Shown here piece after piece: positions 42,988-43,694 of a stretch of 64,000 bases of DNA. A program made the translations under genes and the position numbers. This DNA comes from Thalassobaculaceae bacterium (GTDB taxonomy: Bacteria > Pseudomonadota > Alphaproteobacteria > Thalassobaculales > Thalassobaculaceae). The notes under the pieces were generated by a model. That model was not told the DNA's origin and did not search any database. It saw nothing but the letters and a program-made list of their open reading frames with translations. The stretch lies in contig JARGOG010000001.1 in the NCBI GenBank assembly GCA_029212785.1, forward strand, positions 110,758 to 174,757. The letters are read 5' to 3'. Numbering within the stretch: position 1 is the stretch's first letter; each line of letters begins with the position of its first letter.

Positions 42988-43079
42988 GGAGGGGTGGCCG
43001 AGTGGCTGAAGGCGGCGGTTTGCTAAACCGTTTTAGGGGGAAACCCTTAACGTGGGTTCGAATCCCATCCCCTCCGCCA
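42988..43079 (+). tRNA. tRNA-Ser(GCU), CCA encoded
   Basis: GGAGGGG/CCCCTCC acceptor stem, anticodon loop tttGCTaaa, variable arm AGGGGGAAACCCT, GGTTCGAATCC T arm. Confidence 0.95.
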
Positions 43080-43101
43080 ATTCTGCTTTTGGGCCGCAAT
43101 T

Positions 43102-43329
43102 CCCGCCCAACGCCGTAAAAACAATAGATGTTTCCGGGGTTCGAAACCCTCCGTTCCGGCTATAGGCAAGCTGGTCGTTGAAGGCCAGTTTCAGCACCGC
43201 ATGACGCATGCCGAGCGTGCCATTTTCCCAGCTATCGCAAAGGTTTGCGAGCACTCCGAGGGTGAGTTCGAACATCTCCCCGAAGATCCTGCGCGAGCGG
43301 GCCTTGGTTTCGAACTTCTCGGCCAGCAT
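43102..43329 (-). pseudogene. C-terminal remnant of a large serine recombinase (recombinase-family site-specific integrase)
   Basis: LAEKFETKARSRRIFGEMFELTLGVLANLCDSWENGTLGMRHAVLKLAFNDQLAYSRNGGFRTPETSIVFTALGG matches the recombinase C-terminal pattern; in-frame TGA a few codons upstream and no N-terminal catalytic domain. Confidence 0.75.
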
Positions 43330-43380: not shown

Positions 43381-43409
43381 TTGTCTTATCCCCCTGGGGG
43401 GGATATATC
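43381..43409 (+). promoter_or_regulatory. Candidate promoter with operator in its spacer
   Basis: TTGTCT - 17 nt - TATATC; spacer contains TATCCCCC-TGG-GGGGGATA (43387-43405). Confidence 0.6.
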
Positions 43410-43415
43410 CGGTGT

Positions 43416-43694
43416 ATGTCAAACCATGGACCGCACGAATCCCATCCGGCGATCATTAAGCGCCTGAAGCGCGCGGGTGGCCATCTGAACAGCGTGATTG
43501 CGATGATCGAGCAGGGACGCGACTGCATCGACATCGCCCAGCAACTCCACGCCGTCGAGAAGGCCATCACCCAGGCGAAACGCGTGCTGATCCAGGATCA
43601 TATCGACCATTGCCTGGACAGTGTGGTGGGGGGGGCGGGCCCCGCCGCGCCGGCGGAACTCGCCGATTTCAAGACGATCACCCGGTATCTCTGA
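43416..43694 (+). CDS. CsoR/RcnR/FrmR-family metal-sensing repressor (NreA/NcrB-like)
   Basis: HPAIIKRLKRAGGHLNSVIAMIEQGRDCIDIAQQLHAVEKAITQAKRVLIQDHIDHCLD; Cys...His-x3-Cys ligand set. Confidence 0.88.
   Translation: MSNHGPHESHPAIIKRLKRAGGHLNSVIAMIEQGRDCIDIAQQLHAVEKAITQAKRVLIQDHIDHCLDSVVGGAGPAAPAELADFKTITRYL

Follow-up and report, generated by a model that had tools for sequence, protein, structure and literature searches.

A probable NreA-type operator fills the promoter spacer of a predicted leaderless nreA-nreB operon in a Thalassobaculaceae bacterium

Repressors of the CsoR/RcnR family differ in their signal, which may be Cu, Ni/Co, persulfide or formaldehyde (PMC5016687). One of them, the nickel repressor NcrB (DUF156) of Leptospirillum ferriphilum, controls an exporter operon and binds the sequence ATCCCCCTGGGGGGGAT, as demonstrated by EMSA, DNase I footprinting and a one-hybrid assay, in the last of which Ni(II) disrupted the interaction; its operator spans +1 to +17 in the 44-nt leader that precedes ncrA (PMC3046157). 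In Mesorhizobium C089B, the operator of nreAXY (consensus TATCCYCtccrgGRGGATA) occupies the spacer between -35 and -10, TCC-N9-GGA proved essential by operator mutagenesis, loss of the TTG abolished expression, and NreA represses while Ni(II) relieves the repression (PMC12724321, 2025). In Agrobacterium carrying a promoter fusion, 5'-RACE placed +1 of this nreA at the A of the AUG, and mutation tests showed that NreA needs C38, H63, H66 and C67 for the Ni response and R17, R20 and Q44 for DNA binding (PMC12724321). The nickel exporter NreB of Achromobacter xylosoxidans 31A is described as an MFS permease with a His-rich C-terminus (Grass 2001, as cited by PMC4186839 and PMC5557971).

In the stretch of Thalassobaculaceae DNA analysed here (the window; 64,000 nucleotides), the NcrB operator recurs letter for letter at 43388-43404, as the inner 17 bp of a dyad directly before a CsoR/RcnR-family repressor gene (Table 1). 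The dyad also fits the Mesorhizobium consensus and, as in Mesorhizobium nreA, fills the spacer behind a -35 with TTG, whereas the Leptospirillum operator lies within the leader. Since the operator sequence was demonstrated for NcrB and the promoter layout for Mesorhizobium, the window combines two proven features. CsoR of Mycobacterium, InrS and RcnR share with this locus the protein family and the type-1 operator logic (G/C tract, inverted flanks), but they are distant in sequence and their known operators differ in the flanks. We consider it very probable that an NreA-type, nickel-responsive repressor uses the dyad as its operator, and that the dyad governs an autoregulated, leaderless nreA-nreB operon with an NreB-like nickel exporter. 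A preliminary description of this DNA had already proposed a CsoR/RcnR-type operator located in the 17-bp spacer and overlapping the -10. The operator type is supported by the adjacent PF02583 gene and by the core shared with the NcrB footprint (PMC3046157), and its placement by a geometry that is conserved in homologues and the same in Mesorhizobium nreA (PMC12724321); upon re-reading of the letters, the positions given for TTGTCT, the dyad, TATATC, the spacer and the ATG were all exact.

Table 1 Features of the putative nreA-nreB locus in the window.
Feature	Position	Strand	Basis
-35 element TTGTCT	43381-43386	+	Letters checked; TTG near-invariant in 24 dereplicated loci picked for this layout; TTG loss in Mesorhizobium
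Operator, perfect 19-bp dyad TATCCCCC-TGG-GGGGGATA, contains TCC-N9-GGA	43387-43405		
-10 element TATATC	43404-43409	+	Own TA forms the last bases of the dyad; TA invariant in 24 loci
Inferred transcription start, A of ATG, 7 nt past the -10	43416	+	Geometry; 5'-RACE of Mesorhizobium nreA
nreA-like CsoR/RcnR-family repressor gene, 92 aa	43416-43694	+	Pfam PF02583, E 1.2e-21; CsoR/InrS relatives; conserved residues
nreB-like MFS permease gene, 457 aa	43707-45080	+	Pfam MFS_1, E 2.7e-31; His at 13 of the 75 C-terminal residues

Both 8-bp arms of the dyad, TATCCCCC (43387-43394) and GGGGGATA (43398-43405), are perfect and enclose TGG (43395-43397), and their TCC (43389-43391) and GGA (43401-43403) place TCC-N9-GGA between the TTG of the -35 and the -10, as in NreA-type spacer operators. 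With one G/C tract and inverted repeats flanking it, the dyad corresponds to the type-1 operator as defined for the CsoR/RcnR family (PMC12724321). The spacer between TTGTCT and TATATC measures 17 nt, and six bases (43410-43415) separate the -10 from the ATG. Both hexamers are weak, agreeing with the consensus at 8/12 positions, and the promoter was thus not reported by a sigma-70 scan in which at least 9/12 were required; our promoter call rests on the comparison between loci and not on the consensus match.

Perfect 8-bp inverted repeats with a loop of 0-7 nt occur 19 times in the window (three of them with a 3-nt loop), a frequency that would allow the dyad to be a chance GC-rich inverted repeat, an RNA hairpin or a terminator. 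Between 43330 and 43416 it is the sole perfect 8-bp inverted repeat, its specific sequence at up to 3 mismatches matched once in the window versus 0.20 times expected, and its only perfect copy in the 4.92-Mb genome lies at the single CsoR/RcnR-family gene found there. As 8-bp inverted repeats are not rare, the weight falls on the recurrence of the dyad ahead of homologous genes from other families, which, as judged from the compared sequences, we regard as the decisive argument against chance. Given that the dyad is kept at a fixed spacing in many families and is identical to the footprinted NcrB site, and that no terminator was called at the dyad, we regard an origin by chance or a role as hairpin or terminator as extremely improbable. 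The idea that the repressor has further targets in the genome was considered and rejected, as the next-best site (L086, 2 mismatches) falls within the coding frame of a solute-binding protein and matches with 3 mismatches were no more numerous than in a reversed-pattern control; the weaker genome matches to the dyad numbered 5 versus 8 in this control and were thus not in excess.

The comparison of homologous loci comprised 82 rows, i.e. 80 loci from a genome collection, one same-family relative and the window. A recognisable TATCC...GGATA dyad was present upstream in most of the 82 rows and absent upstream in a few, e.g. L054 and L055. In 40 of the 82, a TTG hexamer adjoins the dyad, so that the -10 starts with the final TA of the dyad, and within these 40 the distance from dyad to start codon is exactly 10 nt in 33 and 9-11 nt in 36. 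Across 24 dereplicated loci, conservation is seen at the TTG, ATCC, GG and TA positions but not in the 10 nt ahead of the ATG, with the spacing in this set fixed partly by construction, since the loci were picked for TTG and 10-nt spacing (L033, with TTT for TTG, was added by hand); the unselected count is the 33 of 40. Owners of spacer-type loci include Rhodobacterales, Rhizobiales and Thalassobaculaceae, among others. The start codons of the homologues correspond to the ATG at 43416, upstream of which no in-frame ATG, GTG or TTG was found before any stop.

The preliminary description had further suggested that the repressor mRNA may be leaderless, starting about 7 nt past the -10. This suggestion agrees with the conserved geometry, in that the 10-nt distance puts the A of the AUG 7 nt past the -10 in 33 of the 40 rows, and with the 5'-RACE in Mesorhizobium: initiation at or next to the A of the AUG, like the Ni response, is measured there and predicted here. 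The additional claim that no Shine-Dalgarno sequence is evident calls for one qualification: close to the ATG (-12 to -1), pairing with the anti-Shine-Dalgarno sequence is weak (-3.0), but over the last 20 nt before the ATG a G7 tract can pair at -9.5 kcal/mol. Such a tract would suit a main start farther upstream, with the same operator and repressor, a leader and the G7 as distant Shine-Dalgarno sequence, and leaders of this sort have counterparts in halomonad and betaproteobacterial homologues, where the same dyad lies 23-39 nt from the start codon (with a Shine-Dalgarno sequence in halomonads), and in the ncrA leader (PMC3046157). The G7 tract, however, stops 13 nt before the ATG, which is too distant for a normal Shine-Dalgarno sequence, and in loci of this geometry the tract is at least 13 nt away; moreover, a coupling of -10 and start predicts just such a fixed distance of 10 nt, and the Mesorhizobium +1 is at the AUG (PMC12724321). 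We thus hold an upstream start to be improbable and favour the leaderless one. In some Rhizobiales members, AGGA follows right after the dyad and could act as a weak Shine-Dalgarno sequence.

The PF02583 (Trns_repr_metal) domain of the 92-aa protein scored 77.3 bits against a curated cut-off of 22.8, and the closest solved chains are CsoR and InrS. The metal residues C37, H62 and C66, which make up the Cys-His-Cys/His metal pocket of PF02583 repressors, and the DNA-contact residues R16, R19 and Q43 are identical in all 82 homologues, and H65 is kept in 79 of the 82. Together, C37/H62/H65/C66/R16/R19/Q43 correspond to C38/H63/H66/C67/R17/R20/Q44 of Mesorhizobium NreA with an offset of one residue, and the position of NreA K91 is R90 here and K or R across all homologues. 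In both organisms the repressor gene comes first, followed by nreX and nreY in Mesorhizobium but by the NreB-like permease gene in the window. The latter begins 12 nt past the repressor stop codon, and the two genes are probably cotranscribed. Its product is 62% identical to MFS transporters on Sinorhizobium plasmids and matched TIGR00900 with an E-value of 5.4e-78, yet under the curated cut-off of this model. Judged by sequence, it has the MFS fold and the His-rich C-terminus of the NreB description, and, going by that description, it shares with A. xylosoxidans NreB the company of an nreA-type gene.

Pocket (NreA-type) and neighbour (NreB-like) make Ni(II) the most likely signal. Taken by themselves, the pocket residues do not determine which metal is sensed, because the Cys-His-Cys pockets of CsoR proteins also serve Cu(I), and neither does the context prove it, because the neighbours of NreA-like proteins vary: 56 of 81 homologous loci have an MFS homologue and 25 are without one in the compared DNA. 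A repressor sensing a signal other than nickel, e.g. Co(II) or Cu(I), that is exported by the MFS protein would be in line with the range of family signals (PMC5016687) and with the weak scores of the protein against the NCBIfam models of RicR, a copper sensor, and FrmR, both far under their cut-offs. Considering that the operator is identical to the site of the Ni repressor NcrB (PMC3046157), that the pocket is the same as in Ni-responsive NreA (PMC12724321) and that the C-terminus is His-rich as in the Ni exporter NreB (PMC4186839), we judge this to be rather unlikely.

In the nickel switch that we propose, the apo-repressor, a tetramer in the CsoR/RcnR family, would sit on TATCC-N9-GGATA and, since the operator fills the spacer and takes in the TA with which the -10 begins, would exclude RNA polymerase for as long as spacer and -10 are occupied. 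Ni(II) entering the inter-subunit C37/H62/C66 pocket would release the repressor, upon which polymerase would initiate at the A of the ATG or next to it, and translation would begin from the leaderless AUG. The same mRNA would thereby give rise to both repressor and exporter, and nickel would be lowered until repression returns.

The layout of the site as such is already known, and only the comparative pattern across lineages exceeds the published case. With the window, the leaderless spacer-operator layout of NreA, measured so far in Mesorhizobium DNA, would reach into another order of the Alphaproteobacteria and, judging from the compared loci, into many families. In three beta- or gammaproteobacterial loci (L030, L058 and L076), the dyad is kept in the spacer and the leaders are about 30 nt long. 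Spacer-filling operator and leaderless repressor start may form a selected NreA module that is widely conserved across orders of the Alphaproteobacteria and among a few others, with beta- and gammaproteobacteria keeping the operator but having the promoter rebuilt with a leader; we see the case for and against this generalisation as evenly balanced. The natural variants, in which the same operator is combined with differing promoter positions and with or without a leader, provide material for asking why autoregulated stress repressors use leaderless mRNAs and, if the pattern is true, a comparison of leaderless with leadered lineages could tell what advantage a metal-stress switch gains from starting without a leader.

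The halomonad loci (L010, L014, L021 and others) carry the dyad 23-30 nt before the start codon, ahead of the Shine-Dalgarno sequence and following an apparent TTGGCA-N18-TAACAT promoter, assigned by eye; in halomonads the promoter thus appears to be arranged differently around this operator, with the dyad after the -10 TAACAT. In Xanthobacteraceae L048, L057 and L062, the repressor gene is preceded by a tandem pair of dyads spaced about 20 nt apart, and in Hyphomicrobiales L036, L038, L051 and L067 a dyad or partial dyad lies 64-83 nt, rather than 10 nt, ahead of the start codon. A same-family genome (L003, ~1440-1510) has an extended dyad, with GCCTTGACCCTATCC recurring in inverted orientation as GGATAGGGTCAAGGC, which brings even the -35 into the palindrome. 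The tree of the repressor homologues (92 columns) was mostly unresolved, with the window protein on a long branch, and the label changes counted on it, 6 for the spacer-10 class, offer a rough guide only. Upstream of the repressor gene lies a tRNA-Ser(GCT) at 42988-43079, with a minus-strand ORF (43033-43329) at its 3' end, whose product shows 38% identity to hypothetical proteins of Phaeobacter plasmids. As we take this product to resemble the C-terminus of a site-specific recombinase, nreA-nreB may have arrived beside the tRNA gene as part of an island of which a remnant is left.
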